A stretch of DNA of 64,000 bases from positions 62,001 to 126,000 of the forward strand of contig JACPPD010000009.1 of the NCBI GenBank assembly GCA_016191145.1. The letters are read 5' to 3'. The position numbers were made by a program, and so were the translations under genes. Positions 28,398 through 57,566 of this stretch are shown here, piece by piece. The notes below the pieces were generated by a model that had not been told where the DNA came from, did no database searches, and saw nothing but the letters and a program-made list of their open reading frames with translations. Each line of letters begins with the position of its first letter. Within the stretch, counting starts at the first letter, position 1. This DNA is from Ignavibacteria bacterium (GTDB lineage: Bacteria; Bacteroidota; Ignavibacteria; Kapaibacteriales; Kapaibacteriaceae).

Positions 28398-30035
<1,638 letters not shown>

Positions 30036-30062
30036 TTAAGTTAGTGTGAATATTTTGTTTTG

Positions 30063-30353
30063 TTACTTTTTAACAACAGCAAAGATGTCACCCTCACGCA
30101 TGATGAGGAGTTCATCGCCATCAACAGTAATCTCTGTACCGGCATACTTACCGTAGAGAACCTTATCACCAATCTTAACCGACAGCGGAGTAATCTTTCC
30201 GTCGTCATTAACTTTTCCATTACCGACAGCAATTACTTCACCCTGCATGGGTTTTTCCTTTGCTGTGTCGGGAATAATGATTCCACCTTTTGTTGTTTCT
30301 TCCGGTGTAGCCGGCTTGATGATCACGCGATCATGAAGCGGAGTGAGATTCAT
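30063..30353 (-). CDS. groES: Co-chaperonin GroES (10 kDa)
   Basis: GroES caps the GroEL chamber. It is 96 aa, with [19 protein letters not shown] at the N-terminus, the mobile loop [13 protein letters not shown] and [11 protein letters not shown]. It is the first gene of groESL. Upstream lie a promoter, a CIRCE operator and an extra palindrome, pointing to HrcA control. Confidence 0.99.
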
Positions 30354-30428
30354 ACATTTCCTCCAGATAAGTTCCAGGTTCTATTTTCATCAATTCAGCG
30401 GAGTAGTCGCTCTCGCTGAACCTAGATT

Positions 30429-30465
30429 CAGTTTCGGATTCACGGAACTCTGAATTCCGAAACTG
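30429..30465 (-). promoter_or_regulatory. Perfect 10-bp inverted repeat in the groES leader
   Basis: CAGTTTCGGA and TCCGAAACTG are perfect inverse copies separated by 17 bp, between CIRCE and the groES start. They overlap the CIRCE by 3 bp. In the mRNA they would form a hairpin; a second protein site or an RNA structure affecting stability are both possible. Confidence 0.5.
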
Positions 30466-30489
30466 GCACTCTCCACTTGAGAGTGCTAA
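30463..30489 (-). promoter_or_regulatory. CIRCE operator (HrcA binding site)
   Basis: On the minus strand TTAGCACTC, a 9-nt spacer, then GAGTGCCAG. This matches the CIRCE consensus TTAGCACTC-N9-GAGTGCTAA with two mismatches in the right arm. It lies just downstream of the groESL promoter, the usual place for HrcA repression. hrcA itself is not in the window. Confidence 0.92.
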
Positions 30490-30507
30490 GACATTTGATT
30501 GGGCGCA

Positions 30508-30536
30508 AAATTAGCCCCTTACCATCGTCGCGTCAA
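30508..30536 (-). promoter_or_regulatory. groESL promoter
   Basis: On the minus strand TTGACG (30531-30536) and TAATTT (30508-30513) are spaced 17 bp. The predicted start lies a few bases before CIRCE. This is a standard sigma-70 type promoter, unlike the -33/-7 form of Bacteroidia. The spacer contains one copy of the recurrent 10-mer GGTAAGGGGC. Confidence 0.75.
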
Positions 30537-30541
30537 GTGAA

Positions 30542-30566
30542 AAGATGGCAATAGAAGAGCCATCTT
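30542..30566 (-). terminator. Candidate terminator of mlaE
   Basis: AAGATGGC and GCCATCTT form an 8-bp stem around a 9-nt loop, followed by a short T run on the minus strand. It lies about 20 nt after the mlaE-like stop and just before the groESL promoter. Confidence 0.5.
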
Positions 30567-30588
30567 GTCCAGCGTCTGCCATTTTGTC

Positions 30589-31371
30589 TTAGAACAAGAT
30601 GCCAAATATTGCATCAATAACGAGAATACTCGCAGCAGAAATGGTAAAGGCACGAACGGTTGAGGCACCAACGCCTTCGGCTCCTCCAGAGGTGCGGAAT
30701 CCTACGTGACAGCCTATGAGAGCAGTAAAGCCACCAAATACAAATGATTTTGTGATACCTGTGGTGACTTCGGAGACTTTGAAAAACGATTCAATGGAAT
30801 TGAAGAATGTTGCCGATGTAAAATCAAATTTAAATGACGTTAGAATATATGCTCCGATTAAGGCTACTGCATTGGAAAACACAGCAAGGATGGGCATCAT
30901 TGTTAGGGCAGCCAGCATCCTGGGCATGGCCAAATAGCGGTTCTTGTCTATTGCCATTAATTCGAGTGCATCGATTTGTTCCGACACCTTCATGGTGCCT
31001 ATTTGCGCAGCAATGGCACCACCGACACGCCCTGCAATAACTAATGCTGTGAGCACAGGTGTTAACTCGGTAAACACAACTGTTGCGATAGACCCGCCAA
31101 TGAAAGGTCTTGCAATTGAAATCAAGTTGAACTTTGCAAAGAGATTCGTTGCCTGTAGTGCAGCGATAGCACCGGTAAAGGATCCAACAAGGATGACAAG
31201 GGGCAGGGAATCTGATCCGACAATTTTCATCTGATCAACAACGAGCGCTCTGTCTTTAAACGCTCGCGGCAGGTACCGAATGGTATTGACCAGTAGAAGT
31301 GATATCTGTCCAAATTCGGCTAAAAAATTCCGAACAAACCGTCCTGAGCGGGCAAAGAAATCCAATAGCAT
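30589..31371 (-). CDS. mlaE: MlaE-family ABC transporter permease
   Basis: MlaE is the permease of the ABC system that moves phospholipids between the inner and outer membrane. It is 260 aa with five or six hydrophobic segments. Family motifs: VGSFTGAIAALQATNLF, FTELTPVLTALVIAGRVGGA, IGTMKVSEQIDALELMAIDK, and CHVGFRTSGGAEGVGASTVR. The ATPase (MlaF) and MCE protein (MlaD) usually follow, but here the gene stands alone ahead of groES. Confidence 0.93.
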   Translation of the reverse strand: MLLDFFARSGRFVRNFLAEFGQISLLLVNTIRYLPRAFKDRALVVDQMKIVGSDSLPLVILVGSFTGAIAALQATNLFAKFNLISIARPFIGGSIATVVFTELTPVLTALVIAGRVGGAIAAQIGTMKVSEQIDALELMAIDKNRYLAMPRMLAALTMMPILAVFSNAVALIGAYILTSFKFDFTSATFFNSIESFFKVSEVTTGITKSFVFGGFTALIGCHVGFRTSGGAEGVGASTVRAFTISAASILVIDAIFGILF

Positions 31372-31418
31372 AATTATAGCAATCTAGCGAACGGCTGACA
31401 ACAATTGTTAACAAACGA

Positions 31419-31453
31419 TAAGACCCGTTAAGTTTTCACCTAACGGGTCTTTA
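31419..31453 (-). terminator. Terminator of the Met-Gly repeat lipoprotein gene
   Basis: AAGACCCGTTA and TAACGGGTCTT form a perfect 11-bp stem around a 10-nt loop, with A/T flanks on both sides. It lies downstream of the lipoprotein gene and could act in both directions. Confidence 0.75.
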
Positions 31454-31487
31454 GGATGCTCAATCAGGTATTAACCTGAATTTTTTA

Positions 31488-32261
31488 TTATCCTCTGGTA
31501 CCAGTGGAACGATTGGCCAAATACCTTTCCAGAATCGCAAGTTGTTCTTCAGTGAGAATGCCCTTCAGAGAGGCCAGGAATTCGTCGTCACAGGCTTTCA
31601 TTGCTTCGCGAGCTTGATTACGGGCATCGGAATTCTTAAGAGCTGCACGTGCATCTGCGTTAATGGCACGGATTTTTTCACGTGCTTGTTCGCGAGTTAT
31701 ATCGCCAGCTTGCAACGCAGCCAAAACTTCTGCACGAGCTGCCTTGGCTCGGGCAATAATGCCGCGCATTGATGCTTTAAAGTCGCCCATTGCAGCGCGT
31801 ACACACGTATCATGATCTGCCAAAAACCCGCGGACCTGTGATACCTGATCGTCAGTGAGGTTCAGCGCTTTGAGGAGTCGGCCAAAAGGATGACTAAGCA
31901 TCTTTCCACTTGGGTCCATCATCTTGTCCATGCCCTGATCCATACCCTGACCCATGCCTTCACCCATGCCCTGACCCATGCCTTCACCCATGCCCTGACC
32001 CATGTCTTCACCCATGCCCTGGCCCATGCCTTCACCCATGCCTTCACCCATGCCCTGACCCATATTGTCATGGATCATCATTTCCTGTTCAATTGTGGCG
32101 TCTGTGACCTCTATCGGCGCTACAAGGAGTTCGTAGCTCGAAGTTATGTTTTCGTTGTTCACAGCAGATGCAGGATTAACGGTGCCGTCGCTGCATGCTA
32201 CTAAACCAAAGGCAGTTAAAAATGCCGCTGCTATCAATCCAACCCACGTGCTGTTTTTCAT
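31488..32261 (-). CDS. Met-Gly repeat lipoprotein with LTxxQ (Spy/CpxP-like) domain
   Basis: This 257-aa envelope lipoprotein has a signal peptide with lipobox ending LVAC-S at about residue 23. Around residues 70-115 are about twelve tetrapeptide units of the form MGQG, MGEG or MGED. The C-terminal half is helical and carries two LTxxQ motifs (LTDDQVSQVRGFL and LTEEQLAILERYL), the mark of Spy/CpxP periplasmic chaperone and metal-sensing proteins. The Met-rich tract could bind Cu(I) or be a flexible tether; both are inferences. ATG at 32261 was chosen because GAGG lies 8 nt upstream and the signal peptide begins there. Confidence 0.82.
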   Translation of the reverse strand: MKNSTWVGLIAAAFLTAFGLVACSDGTVNPASAVNNENITSSYELLVAPIEVTDATIEQEMMIHDNMGQGMGEGMGEGMGQGMGEDMGQGMGEGMGQGMGEGMGQGMDQGMDKMMDPSGKMLSHPFGRLLKALNLTDDQVSQVRGFLADHDTCVRAAMGDFKASMRGIIARAKAARAEVLAALQAGDITREQAREKIRAINADARAALKNSDARNQAREAMKACDDEFLASLKGILTEEQLAILERYLANRSTGTRG

Positions 32262-32356
32262 CTCCGAAACCTCAGTTGTGTAATGTAAATGTATCGTTTT
32301 GTTTTCTTTTCTGTTGTTCACGTGCAAGAATCCGAGTCCTTTGTATAGGTTACATC

Positions 32357-34480
32357 ATGAGTCGTTTAAAATCTGACCTTGAAGCCGTCACTTTCCTTGT
32401 TACTGCGTTCTGCCTATTTGTCTTTAATTCTCTTGCAGCAATAGCACAAACAACTAAGCAGGCTGCGGTGAATTTGACGGCACGGTATCAGGATTCGTCT
32501 ACTCAAAACATACGGGCGTGGTGGACGCCAGCTTCAACGCCAACATCGGCTACAATTTATACAAAGCCAGCTTCAAACAGGACATGGGCCTTCAAGGATT
32601 CGATACCTGCACCTCGAGATCAATGGGAAACGGAGCTGCTCTCCTATGAGTCAGAAGTCGCTGTTGAACAATTCTGGAATGTCAGGGGCTTGGATATTTT
32701 CGCTACCGGATACATGTCTTCGCGTTACGACATGCCCCCTGATGCGCTTTCAACAAATCGAAAAGTTTTGATTATAACCGACATCGAAACACGTTCCAAA
32801 TTAATCGCATCGTTTAATCGGCTGATTGATGACTTACAACGAGAAGGTTGGGTTGTTGATTTTAAGGGGGCATCCTCTGCAAGTACGCCGAAAGAATTAA
32901 AAAAATTGATATACGCCTCGCGTTACGATACAGTAAGAGGGATGCTGACACATGTTCTAATTGTGGGAGATCTTCCGTATGCAATGTCTGGAGGTTTTAG
33001 CGCATTTGGTGCTATCCACCCTCCAGACGGCCACACAGAGCATGGCGGCGCATGGGCTTCCGATGCATACTACGCAGACGTTGAAACATCTCCGGGCATA
33101 AATGCTGAGTATCAGTGGACTGATGACCTTGTTGATATGCCATTGTCGGAACTTGTAGCTCGACCGGATAATGTAAACATTCCGGGTGACGGCAAGTTCG
33201 ATCAGTCGCTCATTCCCACGGATCTCGAGCTGTGCGTTGGACGTGTTGACATGCGTAGGCTGCAAACTTTTGGCGTTGTTGGTGGAGATAGAAAGCGCGA
33301 ACTCGAGCTCATTGGGCAATACCTTGATCGGAACCACTCATATCGCACAAGGGAGTTCGAACCTCCGAGTCGTGCGTTGATCGACGACAACTTTGGAATG
33401 TTTGTGTACGTTCAGCAGGGACTGACAATTACCGAAGCCTTTGCTGCTTCGGGATGGCGCTCGTTCTCTCCAATCGTCGGCGCCGAAAATGTATTTGTTG
33501 GCGATTGGATTAGTGATTCGCTTTCACAAACACTTCCATCTCTGCAGACACATCCATCGTTGTTTGCATACGCCTGCGGAGGTGGACAATACGATGCATC
33601 CGTGGGAGTGGGAACGGTTAGCGACTTTGCAAGAGACTCACTGAAAGCCTCGTTTACATTGTTGTTCGGTTCATATTTCGGAGACGTCTGGAGCGATGAC
33701 AACTTTATGCGTTCAGCTCTTGCGGCAGATGGATGGGTATTAACATGTGGCTGGTCTGGCCGTCCGCATTGGTTCCTTCATACCATGGCATCGGGAGAAA
33801 CGATTGGCGAATGCCAACGTTTATCGGCAAATAATGCGGGTGAATATATTGGAGCAACACAATACGATCCGAGCTCGATGACGTGGGCTCCATACACAGA
33901 GGGCTTCCGCTCAATAAATAATCTTCTGCTAGGCGACCCAACGCTGACGCTACAGGGTCCGGTACTCGAAGGTGATTTATCAATCACTCAAAGCACTACC
34001 TCAAACCGTATTGAGCTTCTCTGGAGCAAATCGCCGCAACACGTGGAATCCGATCCGAATGCACAGGTCGCCTACATTGTTGAAAGCACATCTACATTAA
34101 GCGAACCGTTCACGTACCTTAAATACATCGCACCTGCAGACAATCCTATTATTTCAACCGAAATTGAACTGCCGAAATTTCATGCATTCGTTAGAGTCAG
34201 ACCACTCTTTACAACCGTCGGCAGACTCTCTCCCCTTGTTGGCAGGGGGCTGATCAGGCAATGGATAGCAACTAGTGTCGATGAATCCACAGAGGCGTTT
34301 CAATTGGTTGGGCTTCGTGGAATTACCCACATCTACGATATTCTTGGAATGCATATCGGTACTATTAATGTTGTTGACCATAATCCACGCAGATTTCTGG
34401 AATCATTAAGGCTTAACACAGGGCTATATTTGCTGGTTGACGAAGGTGGAAATACCGACACTATTTATCTGACGCGATGA
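32357..34480 (+). CDS. C25-like (gingipain-fold) secreted protein
   Basis: This is a 707-aa exported protein with a signal peptide ending near SLAAIAQ. It shares features of the C25 peptidase-like domain: THVLIVGDLPYAM, WASDAYYADVE, ELCVGRVDM, then FAYACGGGQYDAS with a candidate nucleophile, and FGSYFGDVWSDDNFMRSAL. A GHG-type catalytic histidine is not evident, so protease activity is unproven. The last about 60 residues (YDILGMHIG ... TGLYLLVDEGG) resemble a T9SS sorting domain. The start at 32357 precedes the signal peptide; only a weak AGG is upstream. It overlaps the subtilase gene by ATGA. Confidence 0.72.
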   Translation: MSRLKSDLEAVTFLVTAFCLFVFNSLAAIAQTTKQAAVNLTARYQDSSTQNIRAWWTPASTPTSATIYTKPASNRTWAFKDSIPAPRDQWETELLSYESEVAVEQFWNVRGLDIFATGYMSSRYDMPPDALSTNRKVLIITDIETRSKLIASFNRLIDDLQREGWVVDFKGASSASTPKELKKLIYASRYDTVRGMLTHVLIVGDLPYAMSGGFSAFGAIHPPDGHTEHGGAWASDAYYADVETSPGINAEYQWTDDLVDMPLSELVARPDNVNIPGDGKFDQSLIPTDLELCVGRVDMRRLQTFGVVGGDRKRELELIGQYLDRNHSYRTREFEPPSRALIDDNFGMFVYVQQGLTITEAFAASGWRSFSPIVGAENVFVGDWISDSLSQTLPSLQTHPSLFAYACGGGQYDASVGVGTVSDFARDSLKASFTLLFGSYFGDVWSDDNFMRSALAADGWVLTCGWSGRPHWFLHTMASGETIGECQRLSANNAGEYIGATQYDPSSMTWAPYTEGFRSINNLLLGDPTLTLQGPVLEGDLSITQSTTSNRIELLWSKSPQHVESDPNAQVAYIVESTSTLSEPFTYLKYIAPADNPIISTEIELPKFHAFVRVRPLFTTVGRLSPLVGRGLIRQWIATSVDESTEAFQLVGLRGITHIYDILGMHIGTINVVDHNPRRFLESLRLNTGLYLLVDEGGNTDTIYLTR

Positions 34481-44211: not shown

Positions 44212-44310
44212 TTCCCCGGCAGCATATGCCTCCCGGCATGTTCCCCGGCAGCATATCTCTCCCGGCATGTTCCCCGGCAGCATACCGCTCCCGGCATGTT
44301 CCCCGGCATC
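44212..44310. repeat. 29-bp tandem repeat array (about 3.4 units)
   Basis: Units start at 44212, 44241 and 44270, with a partial fourth at 44299. The unit reads TTCCCCGGCAGCATATGCC then TCCCGGCATG; copies differ mainly in the four bases around the central CATATG. Each unit contains an imperfect palindrome (CCCGGCAGCAT/ATGCCTCCCGG). A second array of the same family lies at 57456. No cas genes or unique spacers are present, so it is not CRISPR. Confidence 0.9.
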
Positions 44311-57455: not shown

Positions 57456-57566
57456 TTACCCGGCAGCATATGTCTCCCGGCATGTTACCCGGCAGCATAT
57501 GCCTCCCGGCATGTTACCCGGCAGCATATGCCTCCCGGCATGTTACCCGGCAGCATATGCCTCCCG
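57456..57566. repeat. 29-bp tandem repeat array (about 3.8 units)
   Basis: Units begin at 57456, 57485, 57514 and 57543 (partial). The unit reads TTACCCGGCAGCATATGCC then TCCCGGCATG, the same family as the array at 44212 but with TTACCC in place of TTCCCC. Units 2 and 3 are identical. It fills the gap between the DCC gene and rpoZ. A diverged copy lies 50 bp further on. Confidence 0.9.

Follow-up and report, generated by a model that had tools for sequence, protein, structure and literature searches.

A predicted Spy-like lipoprotein with a variable Met-Gly tract, a likely tether, and a probable ECF sigma factor circuit in Kapabacteria-type bacteria

Spy, CpxP and ZraP are grouped as LTXXQ proteins (Pfam PF07813). 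CpxP exerts feedback on CpxA, and CnrX is the sensor for the ECF sigma factor CnrH. CnrX is anchored by a transmembrane segment, is encoded within the sigma operon and has His/Glu/Met metal ligands. Hallmarks of ECF systems given in excerpts of PMC8103513 are AAC in the -35 block, CGT in the -10 block, an anti-sigma partner and autoregulation. For Met/His-rich regions, excerpts of a study of PcoB (PMC12509749) indicate that function is possible despite disorder and poor conservation.

Here we compare these systems with a gene found in a 64,000-nucleotide stretch of DNA (the window, G000:C1:62001-126000) from genome G000 (2.47 Mb, 19 contigs), in which the gene has one match. In the NCBI taxonomy, Kapaibacterium is placed under Bacteroidota, Eximiradiia. 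Like Spy, CpxP and ZraP, the predicted protein has two LTxxQ motifs, an export signal and a helical hairpin domain. It differs from them in its lipid anchor, an invariant Cys pair, a conserved R-[G/P] C-terminus, about 101 residues between the motifs, an ECF-type promoter and a single-sequence score under the Pfam cut-off. With CnrX it shares a structural match over the full domain and an association with an ECF sigma/anti-sigma pair, but, in contrast to CnrYXH, the gene lies outside the sigma operon, metal ligands are not conserved and the anchor is that of a lipoprotein. The sigma operon itself resembles those of the RpoE-RseA type, since it encodes sigma2 and sigma4 regions and an overlapping anti-sigma-like gene with a transmembrane-like segment, and an AAC-containing -35 block precedes both the operon and a target. 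It departs from them in a -10 block that reads GGnTTnTT without CGT, in an anti-sigma ORF that ends in a TPR-like part and in an apparently small regulon to which the Spy-like lipoprotein and a T9SS-tailed protein would belong. Finally, the protein carries a disordered, poorly conserved Met-rich segment, as envelope proteins with PcoB-type N-terminal regions do, but this segment lacks His, occurs in only two of 30 members and is carried by a Spy-like domain.

The following features were assigned to the locus:

31488..32261, minus strand: CDS of a 257-aa Spy-like lipoprotein, whole gene (ORF translation)
32193..32261, minus strand: signal peptide and lipobox, residues 1-23, LVAC23 (sequence)
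31932..32063, minus strand: Met-Gly tetrapeptide tract, residues 67-110, predicted to be disordered (repeat search, codons, pLDDT)
31509..31892, minus strand: helical Spy/CnrX-like domain, residues about 124-251 (AF2, profile, structural neighbours)
31845..31859, minus strand: first LTxxQ motif, LTDDQ 135-139 (L and Q invariant in 30/30)
31542..31556, minus strand: second LTxxQ motif, LTEEQ 236-240 (L and Q invariant in 30/30)
31803..31805, minus strand: Cys153 codon, inferred disulfide partner of Cys224 (invariance, Cys pairing)
31590..31592, minus strand: Cys224 codon, inferred disulfide partner of Cys153 (invariance, Cys pairing)
31491..31496, minus strand: C-terminal Arg-Gly (R-[G/P] in 26/30 members)
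32326..32354, minus strand: ECF-type promoter element TGTAAC-N15-GGATTCTT, 64 nt 5' of the ATG (motif comparison)
31420..31451, minus strand: terminator-like hairpin of 14 pairs with a weak T tail (ATCGTTTGTT), between the Spy-like gene and mlaE

A variable linker is situated between the lipobox and the helical domain of the protein, which is predicted from lipobox Cys23 to be a lipoprotein and not a soluble Spy. The overlapping plus-strand ORF (31890-32204) reads the complementary strand of the repeat and was not accepted as a gene.

The original prediction of two LTxxQ motifs in a Spy/CpxP-like domain was borne out, the latter by a match of a 30-row family profile to E. coli Spy in the PDB (3oeo), with alignment of both motifs and E values of 1.3e-5 over the whole sequence and 0.0014 over its best stretch. 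The same profile matched 3o39 (E = 3.6e-5) and STV (E = 0.0078), while a single-sequence phmmer search of the PDB gave nothing useful. Against Pfam PF07813, with its gathering cut-off of 24.3 bits, the sequence reached 14.4 bits as a whole protein and 16.5 bits as a domain, and the NCBIfam Spy model matched it at E = 1.0e-4 with 22.6 of 174 bits, far below the cut-off. For these reasons we name the predicted domain Spy-like and do not file the protein as an LTXXQ member. Among the 30 members, 18 matched PF07813 at E up to 0.1 (best 4.1e-6).

The AF2 model, built from three sequences, had a mean pLDDT of 91.7 over the domain, with helices starting at both LTxxQ motifs. VIA-align placed STV (Z 10.7) and CnrX (Z 9.8, 3.1 A over 105 residues; CnrX structures span Z 8.3-9.8) above Spy (Z 8.4) and CpxP (Z 7.3). 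It should be noted that even a Z near 10 does not settle the fold of a helical bundle. Unrelated chains from RNA polymerase (Z 8.5) and the tubulin ring complex (Z 8.0) ranked close to Spy, and we weigh the structural matches jointly with the profile match. No chain labelled ZraP occurred in the VIA-align listing, which excludes nothing. Foldseek returned no match below E 0.001 and ranked Spy 18th (E 1.2).

Matches to the family were found in 48 of 60 related genomes (own included), two of them (G037 and G059) through the Met-Gly tract alone, and in all 23 genomes of the uncultured bacterial family f1 (G000-G022). Across the phylum, the profile matched 55 of 296 genomes drawn, many of the weaker matches covering part of the model. 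Judging from the sequences, the Spy-like family is an old one. The 30-row alignment was made after dropping L024 (G020, partly masked) and L031 and L032 (same contigs as L002 and L004). All 30 members had a lipobox-type N-terminus, 28 by pattern and two by eye (MQSC, LQSC), and nine columns were invariant (M1, C23, L135, Q139, C153, A193, C224, L236 and Q240). The two LTxxQ motifs were 101 residues apart in 26 members; four deviated, L003 through an artefact of the search pattern. By contrast with these positions, linker (48-99 residues) and tail (12-93 residues) varied freely among members.

The cysteines of the domain were counted in the 30 members and 17 more distant ORFs (47 in total). Excluding L059, L060 and L061, which have a gap at one Cys, 44 sequences covered both C153 and C224: 39 had both, five had neither and none had a single one. 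Since the two residues occur only as a pair, a C153-C224 disulfide is likely. Judging from the helix boundaries of the model, the helices bearing them would form the arms of one hairpin, with both residues at similar height. Four of the five sequences without the pair belong to family f12, so the pair was perhaps lost only twice. A Cys/Cys/His metal site that includes His150 (H in 22/30) is a thinner alternative to the disulfide. A further two cysteines, located shortly before the first LTxxQ and within the last 25 residues, respectively, were both present in eight of the 47 sequences and both absent from 34; the pre-motif Cys stood by itself in one contig-cut ORF and the tail Cys in four, which are the f12 members lacking C153/C224 and having a shifted internal Cys.

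The C-terminus was R-G or R-P in 26 of 30 members (21/23 in f1, 5/7 outside f1), and the tails before this end do not align. Among 304 ORFs mechanically chosen in 400 kb of G004, the only one with an R-[G/P] end was the Spy-like gene itself; two of the 17 more distant ORFs had it. This raises a clean question: could the extreme C-terminus of a chaperone be a signal?

Upstream of the Spy-like genes, a two-block element TGTAAC-N15/16-GGnTTnTT with near-fixed block spacing was found. TGTAAC was present in 23 of 30 upstream regions of 250 nt (2.1 expected from shuffles), namely in 21/23 within f1 and 2/7 outside; it was absent before the G013 copy and in five of the seven aligned members outside f1, and G002 reads GGTAAC. 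In the 23 aligned sites, the last T was found in all and the second G in 22, and the middle was nearly uninformative (L019, whose site is near-identical to that of L017, was left out of the column count). The site within the window lies in a stretch of DNA that G000 and its sister species G001 share almost unchanged.

A strict pattern derived from the element occurred twice in G000, once before the Spy-like gene and once at an ECF sigma gene (G000:C11), 24 nt upstream of its ATG. Counts in G000 showed no enrichment over a backward control (strict pattern, 2 vs 2; relaxed pattern, 6 vs 9), the strict counts over four genomes being 9 vs 5, so the case for a promoter rests on position and conservation. 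Seven of the nine strict matches in the four genomes precede a Spy-like, sigma or Ig-fold gene; L106 (G014) and L111 (G004), with no family, sigma or Ig-fold gene 3' of them, were judged to be chance matches. Open frames cross accepted sites as well, therefore being within a frame does not decide.

Position and conservation were assessed with a weight matrix trained solely on 16 sites of the Spy-like gene family. In all 23 f1 genomes, it located a TGTAAC-N15/16-GG site 39-61 nt ahead of the ECF sigma orthologue, defined as the best match and having at least 61% identity. These upstream regions scored 13.2 or more (median 21.4), a minimum reached by 3 of 423 control regions; five of 425 control rows had reached it before two that were the Spy-like gene itself (L088 and L089) were removed. 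The AAC expected of an ECF -35 block was thus present as TGTAAC in 23/23 sigma upstreams, and the CGT of the -10 block was absent, GGnTTnTT standing in its place.

The sigma factor of G000 (182 residues) consists of sigma2 (PF04542, 27-92) and sigma4 (PF08281, 118-169) only, with a short linker, and is over the TIGR02937 cut-off (89.6 vs 42.9 bits). Directly 3' of its gene, an anti-sigma-like ORF was present in all 23 f1 genomes, overlapping it in 22 (offset -1) and separated in one (offset +15). The label rests on this position, on a transmembrane-like segment recognised by eye and on a weak match of the G000 ORF to an NCBIfam anti-sigma model (25.6 of 100 bits, G000 only); the C-terminal part is TPR-like, and TPR models matched the G000 ORF below their cut-offs. 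The gene order supports co-transcription of the presumed pair. The promoter motif is shared by the Spy-like gene and the sigma operon, and the sigma/anti-sigma order is constant in f1; we infer that the ECF sigma factor uses the TGTAAC-GGnTTnTT motif. This common ECF-type promoter favours the envelope-stress role that had been suggested for the protein from its LTxxQ motifs.

Two further observations concern this operon. A C-x8-C pair is seen in the TPR-like part of the anti-sigma ORFs (L112:8249-9178, L117-L139), replaced at both positions, by eye, in several of them (L121, L126, L128, L133 and L137); the pattern suggests a second disulfide in the circuit. Relatives of the ECF gene in f7 (six loci, L141-L146) and f10 (L140) also have TGTAAC in their upstream regions, at distances of 73-167 nt, and in f7 the second block is weaker; this hints that the -35 specificity may be older than f1.

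A third gene preceded by the motif encodes an Ig-fold protein; scans of the G004 and G008 copies showed a T9SS sorting tail together with Ig/carboxypeptidase-regulatory domains. The 5' end of this gene was intact in 13 f1 genomes, and ten of these, G000 among them (C17:7928-7956), had the motif before it in a looser form. The motif was missing in G002, G003 and G012 and in all four relatives outside f1; G001 was left out of the count due to a contig cut. Three of the six relaxed matches in G000 precede the Spy-like, sigma and Ig-fold genes, and the others are L177, L178 and L180. The match at L178 (G000:C12:40407-40436) is followed after 141 nt by the first Met of a 453-aa ORF; its N-terminus is signal-like, and the ORF is possibly a further regulon member.

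Based on the above results, we consider it probable that the protein is a lipid-anchored, Spy-like envelope effector of an autoregulated ECF sigma factor in Kapabacteria-type bacteria, and we suggest the following pathway. Envelope damage would inactivate the membrane anti-sigma factor, with its TPR-like part beyond the membrane helix. The freed sigma factor would then transcribe its own operon, the Spy-like lipoprotein and the T9SS-tailed Ig-fold protein from TGTAAC-N15/16-GGnTTnTT promoters. The lipid would keep the lipoprotein in the membrane, where a disordered tether carries the helical domain, presumably stapled by its disulfide. This domain may bind unfolded or aggregation-prone envelope proteins in the manner of Spy; the chaperone (or buffer) activity is proposed by analogy. 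In two species, the Met-Gly stretch of the tether may add weak hydrophobic client binding and is no conserved active site. The analysis outlines an apparently conserved envelope-stress regulon by its promoter motif, its sigma/anti-sigma pair and two targets; in the literature searched, represented partly by excerpts, no such regulon was described for this lineage.

The Met-Gly tract is the most striking part of the protein. Tandem Repeats Finder reported the DNA array at 31928-32063 with a period of 12 (11.3 copies, score 174) and, scoring better, a period of 24 (5.7 copies, score 202). The codons are ATG GGT CAG/GAA GGC, and residues 67-110 form 11 units, nine of them MGQG/MGEG, one MGED and one MDQG. 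Of the original prediction, the repeat, its 12-bp periodicity and its variability in copy number therefore stood, the last between species (11 units in G000, eight in G001), and the count of about twelve MGQG/MGEG units had to be corrected. The linker holds 17 Met, and its run of 13 Met at an exact period of four was never equalled when residues 24-124 were shuffled 20,000 times (longest run, 7). In an AF2 model of the mature protein, pLDDT was <50 from precursor residue 61 to 120, a range that covers the tract and its flanks. Matches of Pfam TrAA12, keratin-head and KRTAP and of NCBIfam FliH were below cut-off, lay mostly over this low-complexity tract and were rejected.

The repeat is restricted to G000 and G001 among the 30 aligned members and is absent from the other 28. 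The two Spy-like proteins are 81% identical, and the coding DNA flanking the arrays is 86% (N-side) and 82% (C-side) identical. The G000 array has near-zero synonymous variation, and the later units of G001 are built on ATG GGT GGC GGT / ATG AGT GGC GAC; the two arrays thus appear to have been homogenised separately, and for that reason uniform Met codons within one species are no evidence for selection. Matches to the tract alone in frames elsewhere (G004:C1:2236658, G017:C41:26600, G018:C80:893, G029:C7:13593, G037:C69:8087 and G059:C6:8513; E 4.5e-6 to 1e-3) indicate that Met-Gly-rich low complexity also occurs elsewhere in related genomes.

Most likely, the tract is a flexible, slippage-prone tether that was recently expanded. 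Whether the repeat does anything itself is a separate matter: it may be a neutral expansion of low-complexity DNA in a tolerant linker, and we rate this as a serious contender, slightly less than an even chance. Near-uniform codons within each species and different units between them point to recent slippage or unequal exchange, and unrelated low-complexity repeats occur in the tails of other members (e.g., PER and GGPGGPRGGGDTTNV). Against it, the phase of Met and Gly is kept in both species although the spacer residues differ, which is weak evidence for selection. Since this explanation concerns the repeat only, it can hold together with the role of the lipoprotein as an ECF effector. The case shows how the feature that first catches the eye in a protein, here a repeat, can be its least conserved one.

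It is unlikely, in our estimate, that the lipoprotein is a regulator and not a chaperone, targeting the anti-sigma factor as a sensor or feedback inhibitor in the way of CnrX or CpxP. The CnrX structures among the best full-domain matches, the promoter motif common to the Spy-like gene and the sigma operon, and the combination of a TPR-like part beyond the transmembrane-like segment of the anti-sigma ORF with a conserved free C-terminus on the lipoprotein are consistent with such a role. However, the Spy-like gene lies outside the sigma operon, and metal ligands of the CnrX kind are not conserved, with His, Glu and internal Met all lacking among the invariant residues.

A role as a Cu/Ag buffer, in which the thioethers of the tract bind several Cu(I)/Ag(I) ions and the lipoprotein protects envelope proteins in metal stress, seems rather improbable. 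It is favoured by the Met content of the linker, by Met at every fourth residue in the sister species despite different spacer residues, by two Cu-ATPases above the family cut-off in the genome, by the metal sensor CnrX among the nearest folds and, as far as excerpts of PMC12509749 go, by the functional Met/His-rich region of PcoB. On the other hand, the tract lacks His, the Cu-ATPases are near-universal (14/14 control genomes match, 13 over the cut-off), and the position of Met is partly due to recent homogenisation of the DNA. The neighbouring genes that were scanned (MlaE, subtilase and a 761-aa ORF) or read by eye (groEL/groES) included no recognisable copper gene. The only invariant Met of the family is the start Met and none of its His is invariant, and the conserved methionine metal site that had been envisaged was not upheld. 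Since two of 30 members carry the tract, in differing versions, metal binding would not be a function of the whole Spy-like family, and it was rejected as a family-defining property. In the two tract-bearing species, the composition makes Cu(I) buffering possible.

We give still less credit to an oxidant sink, in which exposed Met would scavenge hypochlorite-like oxidants, an exported methionine sulfoxide reductase would regenerate them, and the chaperone and the envelope would be protected. The sole MsrB match in G000 (L182:1477-2001) has a lipobox-type signal (VSSC) and is probably an exported, predicted lipoprotein, its export having been checked in G000 only; no MsrB match was found in G001, an assembly that is 80% complete. 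However, MsrB is common (10/14 control genomes), the G000 msrB has no TGTAAC in the 250 nt upstream, and four genomes searched gave no match to NF003767, which we take to be the MsrP model (listed as PRK05363). The limited presence of the tract (2/30) also speaks against this role. Excerpts of PMC12503329 describe an N-terminal Met hotspot in E. coli Spy and the repair of oxidised Met in Spy by MsrP, but also report that these N-terminal Met are nonessential in the assay.

The R-[G/P] end on a regulon member, together with the TPR-like part of the anti-sigma ORF, invites a feedback hypothesis, likened to CpxP-CpxA but with ECF parts and a carboxy-terminal tag, in which the lipoprotein would be both effector and signal: the TPR-like part would read the free R-G/R-P C-terminus, and a lipoprotein busy with clients would withdraw its tail and so release sigma, a long shot in our opinion.

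Returning to the gene encoding the proposed ECF effector, its surroundings are well conserved in f1. The groEL (named by eye) and mlaE clusters were found in 16/16 f1 stretches around the gene (window 28398-32261, L083-L102) and the divergent subtilase cluster in 15/16; in L098, the Spy-like gene was displaced in the neighbourhood count by a longer overlapping ORF. An operon with the neighbours was rejected: the conserved synteny is read as vertical inheritance, and the hairpin separates the gene from mlaE. Terminator-like sites in the region numbered two, with 1.0 expected, and a sigma-70 promoter scan gave one match, before mlaE, at about the frequency seen in shuffles.

The divergent 761-aa ORF (32195-34480, plus strand) had no Pfam or NCBIfam match up to E 1; by eye, it resembles, we presume, a C25-type peptidase or a T9SS-related protein, and its likely start adjoins the promoter element of the Spy-like gene. 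Elsewhere in the window, two separate tandem arrays (44212-44308 and 57456-57566) share nearly the same 29-bp unit (CCCGGCAGCATAT..CTCCCGGCATG), with 3.3 and 3.8 copies and 94 and 98% matches, respectively.
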